Source: Candidatus Avelusimicrobium intestinipullorum (GTDB lineage: Bacteria; Elusimicrobiota; Elusimicrobia; Elusimicrobiales; Elusimicrobiaceae). Taken from it: a stretch of DNA of 64,000 nt. Shown piece after piece: positions 54,869-61,313 of the stretch (positions within the stretch are counted from its first letter, which is position 1; the number at the start of each line of letters is the position of its first letter). The notes under the pieces are model-generated. The model was not told where the DNA came from, did no database searches, and saw nothing but the letters and a program-made list of their open reading frames with translations. The translations under genes were made by a program, and so were the position numbers. The DNA lies in the NCBI GenBank assembly GCA_944324635.1, contig CALUXC010000001.1, positions 124,001-188,000 on the forward strand, read 5' to 3'.

Positions 54869-55471
54869 TTAAGGGCGTTTGGCGGCGGGTTTGCGTGCGG
54901 GGGCGTTTTTGTCTTGGCAGGAAATTTCCGCTCCCAGGAAGTAGATTTGGTTTTTCTTAAATACGCAGGAAAGCTTTTGCGCACGGGGGGAACCGTCCGG
55001 CGCCGGGTTCATCGGACGCAGGCAGGCAATACGCGTGCAGGAATAGGTTTTGCCGCATTGCGGAAACGAGGAGGAGGGAAAGTTGGCAATAAACCAGGAA
55101 AAATCCAAGTTGAAATTAAGTGCTTTCAAAAAATTGTCACAGGTCATTTCGTCCGTAAACGAACAAAGCGGTTCGGCGGAGGTTTGTTCTATGGTGATGG
55201 TTTGGTCCAGCAGAGTGTAGCGTTCGGAGCTAATAGGGTCGCCTTGGACGCGGTAAACGTCAAAGCAACTATATCCGGCGGGCTGGTTTTTGGTGCAGGT
55301 GAAACGCTGGAAAATGTCGTTTCCGGGGCAGGTGTCCTCCACTAAGGCCGGGTCCGTGGAGAGGTACTGCGCCTCCTCGCGGATGGTTTGAGGTTTATAG
55401 TCGCCTTCTTTGGCGGCGGCCGAAAGTGCCATGCACGCGGCGGCCAAACAGAAAAAAATTCTTTTCATCAT
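54869..55471 (-). CDS. Secreted cysteine-rich protein of unknown function
   Basis: A 200-residue protein with a signal peptide (about residues 1-20, ending S-A-A-A). The mature part has ten or more cysteines, including D-T-C-P-G, F-T-C-T-K, M-T-C-D-N, K-T-Y-S-C-T-R-I-A-C and E-I-S-C-Q, suggesting a disulfide-stabilised periplasmic or surface protein. The C-terminus is basic (A-R-K-P-A-A-K-R-P). I recognise no family. AAGGAG lies 5 nt before ATG 55471. It has no operon partner. Confidence 0.72.
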   Translation of the reverse strand: MMKRIFFCLAAACMALSAAAKEGDYKPQTIREEAQYLSTDPALVEDTCPGNDIFQRFTCTKNQPAGYSCFDVYRVQGDPISSERYTLLDQTITIEQTSAEPLCSFTDEMTCDNFLKALNFNLDFSWFIANFPSSSFPQCGKTYSCTRIACLRPMNPAPDGSPRAQKLSCVFKKNQIYFLGAEISCQDKNAPARKPAAKRP

Positions 55472-55658: not shown

Positions 55659-58600
55659 ATGTCCAATCATTTTTTCTCGTTTTTTTCCAAAAAAGATACT
55701 CCTTCCGCTCAAGTTATTAAAGCGCTTACCCCCGACATGTTGGCTTTTTTACAGCAGTTTCCTACGGCTGTTTTGTTGCTTAATGCAACGGGCAAAATAG
55801 TGTTTGCCAACGCGGCGGCCGCGTCGGTGCTGCATAGCCAAATTGCCGATTTGAACGGTACCGCCGTGGACCGCTACGGCCTTACCATGCCGCAGGTGCG
55901 TGCCATGGCCGATGATAAAAACGCCGGGAAAGTGATTATCCAGCTGGTGAACCGGGAGGCCGATTCCGTATACGTCAGCGCGGGGGCGCGCTATTTGGCC
56001 GCGACGCCGTTTATTATGCTGACGCTTGAGTCCGTGCCGCATTTTAAGCAGTTAAATGCGGAAAAAGATTTTTTGCGTTCCGTGATAGACAACTACCCCG
56101 TGCCCGTTATCGTGCAAACGCTGGCCGGCGTGTGCACCTTGTGGAACGCGCAGGCCGAAAAAATGTTTGGCGCCAAAGCGCAAAAGGTGCAGGGCCAGGC
56201 GGTATATGAATTTTTGCCCAAAGAAATCGTAGCCTCCGTGCAAAGATTGGACGGGGACGTGCGGACCAAACAGCATACGCGGGAAAATGTGCTTCTGTCG
56301 TACAAAAACGATAAAGGCGAAGATCGGACGCTTTCCGTAAGCAAAGTGTTTGTGCCGGCGGAAAAAGGCAAGGACCAGGCTATCGTGACCGTGTACGAAG
56401 ACGTGACGATGCGCCAACGCTACGAACAGGATTTGCTGCAAAACCGCATGTTGCTGCGCGCGGTGTTGGACAACGTGCCGTTGGGCCTCTATACCCGCGA
56501 CTGCGATAACCAAATGACCTTTTTCAACCGCCAAAGCATGAAAGTGCTGGGCGAAACGGATGTGAAATGCGTCAATACGCCGCACCCTCACCAGAATACG
56601 GAGGAAGTGGAATTTCACCGTTCGCGCGAGCAGCAGGTGCTCAAGGAAGGCAAGATTAAAGATTATCCCGATGAAGTGTATGTGGACCACGACGGGAACG
56701 AAAAGATTTTGCACATGATTAAAATCCCGCTGACCGATGCCGGCCCCAAACCGCTGGTGTTGACGATTGTGGAAGATATCACCGACCGCTACCGCCAGGA
56801 AAAGGAAATCCGCCGGGCCAACAGCTTTTTATCCGCCATTGTGCAAAACGCGCCGATTGGTTTGTATGCCCGCGCGTCGGACGGACGCATGTTGGTGCGC
56901 AATAAACTTTGCGAAATGATTTTTGGCGAAGTGTCCAGCAAAGCGTTTGACTCCACCGGCTCCTTGCCGCATGAAACGCCCGAACAGGTGAATGGGTATC
57001 TCTCCCGCGAGAAATCCCTGCTGGAAAGTGGCAAAGCCTTGGATATACCGGAAGAAGAATACGTCACCGGTGCCGGTGAAAAGAAACTGCTGCACATGAT
57101 TAAAGTGCCTGTGGATCCGCAGGACGGCGAAACGCCGTTTGTGGTCACCTTGGTGGAAGACATCACCGAAAGAAAAGCGCAGGAACGCGCTTTGGTGGAA
57201 ACGAAAAACTTCCTCCAGACGCTGCTTGATCAGGTGCCGGTAGCCATTTATGCGCGCGACAAAGAGGATAAACTTTCCTTTGTAAACCGCCGCGCACACG
57301 AGCTGTTCCCGGACGAAAACGAATATCAGGGAAAAGACGATTTCTACGGCCAGCGCGAAAAAGCCATTTTCCGCGACGGCAAGATGGTGGAATTCCCCGA
57401 AGAATGGTACACCACTTTGCGCGGAGACCGGATTTTGCTCCACCTCATCAAAGCCCCCGTATACGATAAAGAGGGCAAACCGTTTATGGTGCTGACGGTG
57501 GCCGAAGATATTACCGAAAAGAAAGCGCAGGAAAAAGCAGTCATTGACGCGAAAAACTTCCTGCAAACGGTTATTAACAACTTGCCCGTATCGCTTTCCG
57601 TAAAAGATTACGACGGCAAATATATCTTGTGGAACAAGAAAAGCGAGGAACTCTTTGGTGTGTCGTCTTCCGATGTAATCGGACGGACTTCGTATCGTGC
57701 CGATATCAACAAGGACCAGGCCGAGTTCCTGCGCGAGTCCGACCTGCGCGTATTTGAAAGCAAGCGCGAACAAGATATCCCGCAAGAGCTGATTTCTACC
57801 GCCAGCGAAGGCGTAAAAATCATGCACACGGTCAAAACGCCCGTGTTTAATGCGGACGGAACGCCGAACTGTCTGTTGGTGGTGTCGGAAGATATTACCG
57901 CCAAGACCAAAATGGAAAAACAAATCCGCGAAGCCAGCGACAAAAACACCCTGCTCGTGGAAAACGCCCGCGAAGGTATTGTGATTTTGGAAGACGCCAA
58001 AGTCATCTATGCCAACCGCGCCTTGTGCCAAATTTTGGGCTATAAGGAAGTTGCGGAAGTGCGCGGCAAGAGCATTTTGGATATGGCGGTTGAAGACCAC
58101 CGAATGTTCTTAAAAGACAAATACGACGCCGTTGTGGCCGGCTCGGACGATGCTTCCTCCGCCATAGATGTGCGCTTCCTCAAAAAGAACGGGCAGGAAG
58201 TGGAGGCCGAATTTGCGGCCGTGGCGTCCAAGTATTTAGGCCGCCGCATTGTGCTGTGCTTCGTGCGCGATGTGACCGGTTCCAACCGTATGCTGCGCGA
58301 CGTAAAAACGGAACGCGAATGCTTCCGCGCCGCGTTTGAAAAGAGCGTCACGCCGGCGTTTATTATGTCGCACAAGTGCTACATCAGCGTGATGAACGAA
58401 GCCTGCCGCAAAATGTTTGACTTTACGGAAGCGGATAAAAACTTCTACCGCAACGTGTATATCAAACCGGCCGTTTCGTTGGCGGCTCGCAAGCAGTTAA
58501 AAGCCGGTAATCCCGCGCAAATGGATTATGTGTTTGATTTTGACCGTGCGGCCCGCATGTTCCCCGGCCGTATTGAAGGAACCGGCAAATTGCCGCTTTC

Positions 58601-60731
58601 CGTCAGTTTTGTGCCGATAAACAAACGGGACTCTAAAGACGGCACGGTGGAAGCCGATTATGTGGTGTTCTTGGAACGTAAAGACGGGAAAAATAACTGC
58701 CCGCCGCCGCAGGCTCCCACCAAAACCATTGTGCGCCGCCCGGTGCCGATGCCGCCGGCTCCGCCGTCTATGGTCATTAGCAAAACGGCCAGCGAAATGC
58801 TGGTGCTGCCCAACAGCGAGCCGTATGTGTTGTGCGGAAAAGACTGGAAGATGGAAGTGTGCAACGATTTGTTCTGCTCCCTGTGCCAGCTGACGGAAGA
58901 AGAACTGCTGGGGCAGGACTTGCGCCGCGTGTTTGACGCGGACTCGCTCCCCCGCTTGGAAGAAGACTTAAAAGCCCTGGAACAGGACGGTTCTTTAGCC
59001 AACCGCGAATACCGCATCAACCTGGCCAGCGGTTTGGAAAATACCGCCGTACGCATGACGGCTATCAAAGAAGCGGACGGACGCTACCTGTTTGTGCTTC
59101 GCAATATGGCGTTCCACCGCCAGATTATGAAAATTTTGGAGGAACGCTCCGCCCAGCTTAATTCGCTTTTGGAAGCGACGGACGGGGTGGTATTCTCCGT
59201 ATTGTTTGAAAACGGCCGTTTTGGGCATATTGAACAAGCCAATAAATTCCTGGCGCGCATGTTGGGCTTCTCGCACGACGAACTGGTGCACATGCCGTTT
59301 AGAGATTTGTTTTTTGACCGGGAGCACAATGCCGCCCGCTGCAAAGAAGTGCTGGACAAAGCCCAGGAAGAATTGGCCATGAAAGGCAAAACTTCTTTCC
59401 GCTTGTCCGTGCGCAAAAAAGACGGCGGTTCCTTTGAAGCCCAGGTGGTGGTAACGTCCATGGACTTGCCCAGCAAAGACGCCGCGTTGGTGGTGGTGAG
59501 GGACTTGTCGGAAGAGCTGGACGAAGTGTCCAAGGACTCCAAAGAGGCCCAGGAACTTAATAGTGTGCGCCAGGCCCTGCCCGGCCTGTATCTGAAGACG
59601 GACAGCGACGGACGCGTGTTGGAAGTGTATTCCAACCTGGCTTATTTGGACAATGCCCACGCGGCGGAAACTTTCTTGCATAAAAAACCGGAAGTGTACT
59701 GGCCGGAAGAAGCCTCCAGCCGGGCCATGTTCTCTATCAAAGAGGCTCTTTCCATTAACGTCAGCACGCGGTTTGAATTTGAATGGACGGTGGCAGGAAC
59801 TCTGCGCTATTTTGAAGCTACGGTGACGCCTATCACCGGCCGGGCCGAAACGGTGCTGTGGGTCAAAGATGTGTCGGACCGCCACGCCTATGACGAAAAA
59901 ATCCACGAACTTTACCGTATGGCCAGCGAGCCCGGTTTGACCATTACCGAACAGGTGGATAAAATTCTGGCGTTTGGCTTGAAAACTTTCCCGTCCGATA
60001 TTGGTTTGGTCATTCGCTTTGACCAGGGGAAACTGGGCTTGGAAAGTAACGTGGTGTACGCCACGCCCAATGACTTTAACGTGCAGCGCTACATGACCTT
60101 CCCCGTGGAGGAATGTTTGGTGGACGTGCCGGACGGAAATGTAGTGATGTTCCCGAATTTGGAAAATACGAACTGTGCCCGTTGCTTGCATAAGGAAAAG
60201 GGCTTCGGCTCGCTGTTGGCGGCGCCGCTGTATGTGGCGGGCAAGGTGCAGGGGGCGTTGTGCTTTGCTTCGCGCGACTCCCGCAAAGATTTTGGGCAGG
60301 GTGCCGAGGAACTTATCGGCATTATGTCGCGCCTGCTGAGCCTGCGCATAGAACTGCGCCAAACGGGCAAAATGCTTAGCGAAGCGTCCCGTTCGTTAGC
60401 CCGTACGCTGGAGTATGTGGAAATGCCGGCCGTAATGCTGGATTTGGACTATCAGGTCACGTTTGTCAACAAACCGTTCCTGGAAGTTACCGGCTTGCGC
60501 ACCAATAACATTATGGGAAGGGATTTCTTCTCAGAAGCCATTCGCAATGAGGACCTTTCCAAACAAATGTTCAAAGCGGCCGAAAATTCCGCCGCCGGAA
60601 ACGCGTTCCAGGTGCGTATGGACCTGCTGCACGAAAACGGCCTGTACGAAGATACGGGTTGGGACGTGTTTGCCTGCAAAGATTCCGACGGCAATGTGGA
60701 CGGCTACGCCCTGATTGCCTCGGAGGGTTAA
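55659..60731 (+). CDS. Giant multi-PAS/GAF sensor protein without output domain
   Basis: A 1690-residue soluble protein with no signal peptide or transmembrane helix. I count about twelve PAS-like units: near residues 24-125, 133-250, 258-372, 383-500, 510-625, 628-750, 760-870, 885-1010, 1040-1160, 1170-1290, 1300-1410 and 1580-1690, with a GAF domain near 1425-1570. Units 3-5 are recent repeats, each ending in a form of V-E-D-I-T-(D/E)-(R/K) followed by a coiled connector. No histidine kinase, GGDEF, EAL, HD-GYP, phosphatase or DNA-binding domain is visible. It presumably senses small ligands or redox and works through a partner. AGAGGG precedes ATG 55659. It is monocistronic. Confidence 0.85.
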   Translation: MSNHFFSFFSKKDTPSAQVIKALTPDMLAFLQQFPTAVLLLNATGKIVFANAAAASVLHSQIADLNGTAVDRYGLTMPQVRAMADDKNAGKVIIQLVNREADSVYVSAGARYLAATPFIMLTLESVPHFKQLNAEKDFLRSVIDNYPVPVIVQTLAGVCTLWNAQAEKMFGAKAQKVQGQAVYEFLPKEIVASVQRLDGDVRTKQHTRENVLLSYKNDKGEDRTLSVSKVFVPAEKGKDQAIVTVYEDVTMRQRYEQDLLQNRMLLRAVLDNVPLGLYTRDCDNQMTFFNRQSMKVLGETDVKCVNTPHPHQNTEEVEFHRSREQQVLKEGKIKDYPDEVYVDHDGNEKILHMIKIPLTDAGPKPLVLTIVEDITDRYRQEKEIRRANSFLSAIVQNAPIGLYARASDGRMLVRNKLCEMIFGEVSSKAFDSTGSLPHETPEQVNGYLSREKSLLESGKALDIPEEEYVTGAGEKKLLHMIKVPVDPQDGETPFVVTLVEDITERKAQERALVETKNFLQTLLDQVPVAIYARDKEDKLSFVNRRAHELFPDENEYQGKDDFYGQREKAIFRDGKMVEFPEEWYTTLRGDRILLHLIKAPVYDKEGKPFMVLTVAEDITEKKAQEKAVIDAKNFLQTVINNLPVSLSVKDYDGKYILWNKKSEELFGVSSSDVIGRTSYRADINKDQAEFLRESDLRVFESKREQDIPQELISTASEGVKIMHTVKTPVFNADGTPNCLLVVSEDITAKTKMEKQIREASDKNTLLVENAREGIVILEDAKVIYANRALCQILGYKEVAEVRGKSILDMAVEDHRMFLKDKYDAVVAGSDDASSAIDVRFLKKNGQEVEAEFAAVASKYLGRRIVLCFVRDVTGSNRMLRDVKTERECFRAAFEKSVTPAFIMSHKCYISVMNEACRKMFDFTEADKNFYRNVYIKPAVSLAARKQLKAGNPAQMDYVFDFDRAARMFPGRIEGTGKLPLSVSFVPINKRDSKDGTVEADYVVFLERKDGKNNCPPPQAPTKTIVRRPVPMPPAPPSMVISKTASEMLVLPNSEPYVLCGKDWKMEVCNDLFCSLCQLTEEELLGQDLRRVFDADSLPRLEEDLKALEQDGSLANREYRINLASGLENTAVRMTAIKEADGRYLFVLRNMAFHRQIMKILEERSAQLNSLLEATDGVVFSVLFENGRFGHIEQANKFLARMLGFSHDELVHMPFRDLFFDREHNAARCKEVLDKAQEELAMKGKTSFRLSVRKKDGGSFEAQVVVTSMDLPSKDAALVVVRDLSEELDEVSKDSKEAQELNSVRQALPGLYLKTDSDGRVLEVYSNLAYLDNAHAAETFLHKKPEVYWPEEASSRAMFSIKEALSINVSTRFEFEWTVAGTLRYFEATVTPITGRAETVLWVKDVSDRHAYDEKIHELYRMASEPGLTITEQVDKILAFGLKTFPSDIGLVIRFDQGKLGLESNVVYATPNDFNVQRYMTFPVEECLVDVPDGNVVMFPNLENTNCARCLHKEKGFGSLLAAPLYVAGKVQGALCFASRDSRKDFGQGAEELIGIMSRLLSLRIELRQTGKMLSEASRSLARTLEYVEMPAVMLDLDYQVTFVNKPFLEVTGLRTNNIMGRDFFSEAIRNEDLSKQMFKAAENSAAGNAFQVRMDLLHENGLYEDTGWDVFACKDSDGNVDGYALIASEG

Positions 60732-60750
60732 GAGCGTTGTCTTGAAAATG

Positions 60751-60781
60751 TTCCCCGGGAAAAACTCCCGGGGAATTTTTT
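60751..60781 (+). terminator. Terminator of the multi-PAS gene
   Basis: TTCCCCGGGA pairs with TCCCGGGGAA, followed by six T. Confidence 0.88.
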
Positions 60782-60860: not shown

Positions 60861-61313
60861 ATGAATAAAGGTTTTACGTTGGTTGAACTTTTGGTGGTAG
60901 TACTTATTATTGGTATTTTGTCGGCCATTGCTTTGCCGCAGTACGAAACCGCGGTGGAAAAAAGCCGCGCTTCGGAAGCGTTTGTAAACGGACGGGCGAT
61001 TTTGGACGCTATGAACCGGGCCATTAATGAACGCCCGGGGGAATACCCCAACACGCGCGCCGCGCTGGATATCCGCCTTTCCGGCGGGGAATGGAACGGG
61101 GCGACGAATCAGTACAAAACCAAAGATTTTACGTATGATTTGTCCAAGGGGGACCGCGTGGAAGTTACCCGCACGGTAGACGGCGGAAAATATGTGCTTA
61201 GCTTTTACAATAATTTAAGCTCCCAGCCGGACGCCAAAACCTGCACCCCTACGGGTAAAACGGCCGAAAGCTTGTGCAAATCGTTTGAAGGGTCCGGGTT
61301 TGACGCCCAATAA
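60861..61313 (+). CDS. Type IV pilin-like protein (pilin 7)
   Basis: A 150-residue prepilin with leader M-N-K-G before F5-T-L-V-E-L-L. It has A-L-P-Q-Y-E-T-A-V-E-K-S-R, then a globular domain with N-E-R-P-G-E-Y-P and A-L-D-I-R-L, the L-D-I segment shared by most pilins here. Two cysteines near the C-terminus (K-T-C-T-P and S-L-C-K-S) could form a disulfide. ATG 60861 follows TAGGAGG. The gene has its own promoter and terminator. Confidence 0.88.
   Translation: MNKGFTLVELLVVVLIIGILSAIALPQYETAVEKSRASEAFVNGRAILDAMNRAINERPGEYPNTRAALDIRLSGGEWNGATNQYKTKDFTYDLSKGDRVEVTRTVDGGKYVLSFYNNLSSQPDAKTCTPTGKTAESLCKSFEGSGFDAQ

Follow-up and report, generated by a model that had tools for sequence, protein, structure and literature searches.

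The window, a 64,000-nt stretch of the genome of Candidatus Avelusimicrobium intestinipullorum, contains a gene (positions 55659-60731, + strand) for a 1690-residue protein built from twelve PAS units plus a GAF domain, with no output domain. We give a probability of about one half to the reading that this array senses several inputs, or serves as a scaffold, and acts in trans on kinases encoded elsewhere. Made only of PAS and GAF domains, with no catalytic or DNA-binding part, the array needs a partner in order to act. Domains of these two kinds work via dimerisation, ligand-driven shifts of beta-sheets and linker helices. The 12 PAS units and the GAF domain would gather cytoplasmic cues and alter the shape or oligomeric state of the protein, which would in turn contact signalling proteins encoded by other genes, most likely histidine kinases without a sensor of their own; we infer binding, signal flow, partner and ligands alike. 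Regulation of histidine kinases by accessory proteins that bind them is established (PMC12189002; for PodJ-PleC, PMC8980812).

Gene boundaries and domain structure

The reading frame is intact: AGAGGG precedes its ATG at 55659 by a few nt, and the frame runs for 1690 codons and stops at 60731, exactly as first annotated. An intrinsic terminator (60750-60776, + strand; an 11-bp stem and a T run) lies 19 nt past the stop codon, which makes a split-off downstream effector unlikely. The initial annotation had named a frameshift severing such an effector as a finding that would refute its proposal; with the terminator closing the gene, a pilin gene next to it and no effector downstream in relatives, this option was rejected. 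Many type IV pilin-like genes are scattered through the genomes (L094:3617-6430, L219:5726-7489 and window positions 60861-61313); one of them encodes 587 aa.

Unit-specific HMMs divide the protein into 12 PAS units and a single GAF domain, close to the ‘about twelve’ PAS units and one GAF domain first reported to fill it; Pfam and the predicted fold (residues 634-1690) likewise show PAS and GAF domains only. The HMMs were derived from close orthologues of genus g1, and domain counts in orthologues depend on them. All features of the array gene are on the + strand. The protein opens with the peptide MSNHFFSFFSKK (55659-55694), possibly a membrane or docking peptide, followed by U1 (55728-56042, residues 24-128, detected by HMM and Pfam). 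U2 (56058-56432, residues 134-258) opens a block that differs in copy number among members of the family; it continues with the repeats U3-U5 (56442-57557), namely U3 (56442-56807, residues 262-383), U4 (56820-57197, residues 388-513) and U5 (57204-57557, residues 516-633). Then come U6 (57558-57932, residues 634-758), U7 (57936-58289, residues 760-877) and U8 (58302-58682, residues 882-1008). A disordered Pro-rich linker (58683-58790, residues 1009-1044; pLDDT about 30) leads to U9 (58791-59138, residues 1045-1160), U10 (59154-59552, residues 1166-1298), U11 (59568-59912, residues 1304-1418), the GAF domain (59916-60362, residues 1420-1568) and the C-terminal unit U12 (60372-60728, residues 1572-1690). 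DIT-like motifs occur in U2-U7, U10 and U11, with that of U6 invariant, and are missing from U8, U9 and U12. The last strand of U12 is the end of the protein; no signalling helix follows it.

Pfam search with the whole protein returned PAS-type models and GAF only (GAF with 23.1 bits vs a cut-off of 22.4); scans of single units were concordant, with U3, U4, U8, U9 and U11 under the gathering cut-off. Domains within residues 1-633 were assigned by Pfam and HMM profiles, while the AlphaFold2 model, made with 36 orthologues, covers residues 634-1690 (mean pLDDT 81). Helices connect the PAS folds and the one GAF fold of the model, in which disorder is limited to the linker and a few short stretches; the low pTM (0.33) makes the relative placement of domains unreliable. 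Foldseek comparison of the model gave PAS/GAF sensor proteins as top matches. As for cofactors, structures 4gcz and 2pr5 matched U10 alone, and weakly, and none of the solved structures that carry a cofactor proved to be closely related; the LOV cysteine and FixL-type haem His motifs were read by eye, and one histidine, His723 in U6, is invariant.

No HisKA/HATPase_c core was found in the array by Pfam, in the predicted fold of residues 634-1690 or in the examined orthologues. GGDEF, EAL and HTH domains were likewise missing from the Pfam results (whole protein and single units) and from that fold, and the model of residues 634-1690 contains no kinase, cyclase or DNA-binding fold. Nor does an effector domain occur in any examined orthologue (four genera, 1003-1836 aa). 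The original claim that the protein has no kinase, cyclase, phosphodiesterase or DNA-binding domain was thus borne out by Pfam and, for residues 634-1690, by AlphaFold and Foldseek; the profile search proposed along with it revealed no degenerate HisKA/HATPase or other catalytic domain, and with the same three methods no hidden kinase was found. Since the defining domains were searched for and not found, the array is not a histidine kinase, a cyclase or a transcription factor.

Unit variation and conserved residues

Nearly all orthologues, the most divergent ones included, share the fixed order U6-U7-U8-U9-U10-U11-GAF-U12. Variation is seen in the number of U2-U5 units: one g1 clade has a second U5, another has no U5, and the g16 array (1196 aa) consists of U1 plus U6-U12 with no U2-U5 unit. 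Single orthologues miss one unit (U9 in L076, U11 in L075), and larger natural deletions left U1-U8 only in G071 (1003 aa) and U2-U8 plus U12 in G076 (1081 aa). Units U6-U8 are retained in every natural deletion variant seen at full length and are the minimal core. All fully examined orthologues finish at or soon after a PAS or GAF unit; array proteins of g15 have a C-terminal tail of about 20 aa. In G022 a stop codon precedes U12, perhaps an assembly error, and an apparently shrunken array of 325 aa in G035 was dismissed, as a contig end cuts the gene.

Units U3, U4 and U5 were initially described as recent internal repeats. They are repeats, and the copy number of this block varies within the genus, but mutual identity of 35-40% means that they are not recent; identities between distant units that rest on short overlaps were left aside. 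The best conserved unit is U6, with 80% identity within g1 and 60% to other genera. In the GAF domain the motif Cys1486, Cys1506-x-x-Cys1509-x-His1511 (codons at 60114-60116 and 60174-60191) is kept in 32-35 of 36 sequences but altered in g12 and lost in g16; it is a candidate site for metal, Fe-S or thiol redox sensing. At the N-terminus of the array, g1 and g12 share an M-x(2-3)-[FIL]-F-S-F-F-S-like motif, and basic/hydrophobic stretches are found in g15 and g16. An N-terminal amphipathic helix was rejected, its hydrophobic moment being not significant.

Rather than a sensor, the array could be chiefly structural: a scaffold or a hub for localisation, similar to PodJ, in which PAS-PAS contacts and the disordered linker would bring signalling or envelope proteins together at one site, with ligand sensing secondary. 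Such a role, which we rate as unlikely, would fit the very long all-PAS chain with its fast-evolving disordered linker, the conserved hydrophobic N-terminal peptide, the tolerated loss of whole blocks of units and the ability of PodJ to regulate a kinase through the kinase's PAS domains (PMC8980812). It fits poorly with the residue-by-residue conservation of U6 and of the GAF Cys/His motif, with an N-terminal hydrophobic moment no higher than the internal background and with the lack of a coiled-coil-only scaffold region.

Distribution and selection

The array is a single-copy gene in 85 of the 90 genomes of its GTDB family (Elusimicrobiota): 65 of 66 in genus g1, 3 of 3 in g12, 16 of 18 in g15 and the only genome of g16. 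The three array-negative genomes in g1 and g15 are 64-69% complete. At the threshold used, the array is absent from g13 (G093) and g14 (G094), both of them genera with larger genomes, where generic PAS matches only were obtained, and it was not found in the sister family. It is present in 49 of the 51 genomes whose completeness reaches 90% or more. The genomes are mostly metagenome-assembled, and absence from fragmented assemblies is weak evidence. A protein with 81% identity is present in Elusimicrobia bacterium UBA1436; a plasmid search with the array returned generic PAS matches alone.

The value of omega is about 0.08 for the whole array, lowest in U6 and U12 (about 0.04) and 0.4-0.6 in the Pro-rich linker; with dS near or above 1, these values are approximate. 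The array is under strong purifying selection, on which ground a pseudogene was rejected, and its presence in 85 of 90 family genomes combined with such an omega places it beyond chance.

These data bear on the idea that the array is a functionless, decaying relic or decoy, derived from a multi-PAS histidine kinase whose kinase end was lost. Array-less sister genera do encode multi-PAS kinases of 1221-1980 aa, the array stops exactly where a kinase linker would start, and a few truncated versions exist. Still, low omega, near-universal presence (85/90) and a unit order fixed across genera are hard to reconcile with decay, and no parent kinase with the same unit order could be traced: none with the U6-U12 order was present among the loci fetched from G093, G094 and f2. 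We regard the relic explanation as hardly credible.

Genomic neighbourhood

Within the window no signalling gene adjoins the array, as the initial annotation stated; the statement does not extend to G100, where the kinase gene HK_331 is located 114 nt upstream of the array on the same strand (one genome among the 18 of its genus). Array neighbours differ from genus to genus, and no conserved adjacency to any kinase gene was seen in the examined loci.

One neighbour is a gene for a secreted Cys-rich protein of 200 aa (54869-55471, - strand) that belongs to no Pfam family and has about 10 conserved cysteines. Its AlphaFold model (pLDDT 88, pTM 0.73) has no match in PDB (best E 0.35), so the modelled structure is possibly a new fold. 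The gene adjoins the array, divergently or in tandem, in 28 of 30 examined g1 loci. Together the two proteins might form an envelope or redox module, an idea favoured by this adjacency and by conserved cysteines in both. However, the Cys-rich protein is found only in g1, being absent from array-bearing g12, g15 and g16; in G036 its gene is unlinked from the array; and it resides in another compartment than the array. The module is therefore very unlikely, and as a genus-specific protein the neighbour was rejected as partner of the array.

Candidate partner kinases

The genome to which the window belongs encodes six histidine kinases. Several kinases and single-domain response regulators in it have no partner encoded next to them, which favours our preferred reading. 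Under our preferred reading of the array as a trans-acting sensor or scaffold, the leading candidate partner in genus g1 would be HK_250 and the second HK_331.

HK_250 is a soluble sensorless kinase of 250 aa with the HisKA domain near its very start; both HisKA and HATPase are recognisable. It is present in nearly all array genomes, and its frame is 241-288 aa wherever complete in the array clade. Orthologues in array-less g13 (G093) and g14 (G094) have 534-539 aa and the layout GAF-HisKA-HATPase; those of the sister family, of about 520 aa, have the same layout. Syntenic orthologues outside the array clade thus carry an N-terminal GAF sensor region of roughly 280 aa, in which the stretch between GAF and HisKA has no Pfam name and is read as PAS-like. 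Orthology is supported by reciprocal best hits and by a conserved upstream gene for a predicted beta-barrel protein. The conserved locus (L060:4127-7303 and its orthologues) encodes the predicted beta-barrel protein, the kinase, a 174-aa protein and an AI-2E-type transporter. In short or long form HK_250 is present in 50 of the 51 genomes at least 90% complete, and co-occurrence of the sensorless kinase with the array is strong at the genus level.

The array and HK_250 may plausibly be parts of a split sensor/kinase system. Genera g13 and g14 fall outside the array clade in trees, so that gain of the array and loss of the kinase sensor count as one joint event at most. On the same branch genomes shrank and many kinases disappeared, and hence the two changes may be unrelated. 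Between the array GAF and the GAF lost from HK_250 there is a weak match only, with no specific similarity. Furthermore, G113 (g16) retains a 1196-aa array despite a clean loss of HK_250: its locus (L269:1514-3915) keeps the genes for the barrel, the 174-aa protein and the AI-2E transporter, with the kinase alone missing and the flanking stop and start codons overlapping at TAATGA. This deletion rules out HK_250 as an obligate partner.

HK_331 (331 aa) has a hydrophobic stretch at its N-terminus, and no sensor domain was recognised in it. It is present in G113 but is patchy elsewhere, with no orthologue in several near-complete array genomes, and it is equally short in array-less relatives (f2); on both counts it was rejected as an obligate partner. 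With HK_250 lost in G113 and HK_331 patchy, no single kinase is the obligate partner of the array.

Other candidate partners are present in the genome of the window. The array might signal, in place of HK_250 or HK_331, via a PAS-HisKA_3 kinase (through PAS-PAS pairing), single-domain response regulators or an RR-GGDEF protein. This genome encodes all of them: a PAS-HisKA_3 kinase, which has a LuxR partner, as well as single-domain receivers, three in number, and the RR-GGDEF protein. A kinase of the PAS-HisKA_3 size class is found in G016, G091, G112 and also G113, which lost HK_250. Such kinases, though, are encoded in array-less genomes as well and do not specifically co-occur with the array, and we judge signalling by this route unlikely. 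In the genome of the window the receiver-GGDEF protein is encoded at L097:1447-2412, with no kinase adjacent. At L057:5698-8698 a Cache-HAMP-type kinase gene has two neighbours, one for a receiver-HisKA-HATPase kinase and one for a LuxR regulator; the two kinases are paired in all family genomes checked.

The search for a co-conserved kinase, suggested by the initial annotation, thus produced a sensorless kinase in nearly all array genomes, though one whose co-occurrence with the array counts as a single event and which is missing from g16, where the array is kept. The proposal that the protein is a cytoplasmic sensor or scaffold for a separate kinase shares these two weaknesses but, given the lack of an output domain and the existence of a candidate kinase, is still the best reading.

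Relation to known systems and significance

Multi-PAS/GAF sensor histidine kinases such as archaeal MsmS and RdmS (PMC6944256) resemble the array in having tandem PAS and GAF domains, DIT motifs and a cytoplasmic location. Unlike them, the array has no HisKA/HATPase, and its last unit has neither a DIT motif nor a signalling helix. The PodJ-PleC pair (PMC8980812) offers another parallel, that of a non-catalytic protein modulating a histidine kinase in trans, as proposed for the array. In PodJ, however, a disordered region binds the PAS domains of the kinase, whereas in our case the PAS domains belong to the non-catalytic protein itself and are absent from the candidate kinase. H-NOX proteins regulate histidine kinases in trans. 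Stand-alone H-NOX sensor proteins for separate histidine kinases are cited in PMC9510103; as is proposed for the array, sensor and kinase are on separate polypeptides. An H-NOX protein has one haem domain and is usually encoded in an operon with its kinase, while the array has 13 PAS/GAF domains and no conserved operon. The best Foldseek matches, DosP, PpsR and phytochromes, share tandem PAS and PAS/GAF folds with the array but are multidomain sensors with an output module, which the array lacks.

Studies of PAS domains nearly always treat them as inputs to which an output is fused. Phrase searches of the open literature, which were not exhaustive, found no published description of the array protein. 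If it is a sensor acting in trans, the array would resemble trans-regulators of kinases (PMC12189002, PMC8980812) and stand-alone sensors in the way it works, but would be new in its size, in the family-wide lack of output and in its pairing with sensor-stripped kinases.

A wider scenario, which we put forward tentatively and think doubtful, is that cytoplasmic sensing was detached from kinases on the stem of one clade and pooled in the array, which would feed sensor-stripped kinases in trans as a centralised hub. The clade would lie within a host-associated bacterial family, with the hub replacing many one-sensor kinases; this part is equally tentative.

In a lineage with small genomes, an array of 13 sensor domains without an output is retained as a single-copy gene under strong selection, together with a kinase that lacks the GAF region fused to it in its relatives. 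The family offers a ready series of unit deletions (1003-1836 aa) and one lineage that keeps the array with the kinase deleted. If array and kinase cooperate, they would represent a natural fission of sensor and kinase, with signals integrated in trans.
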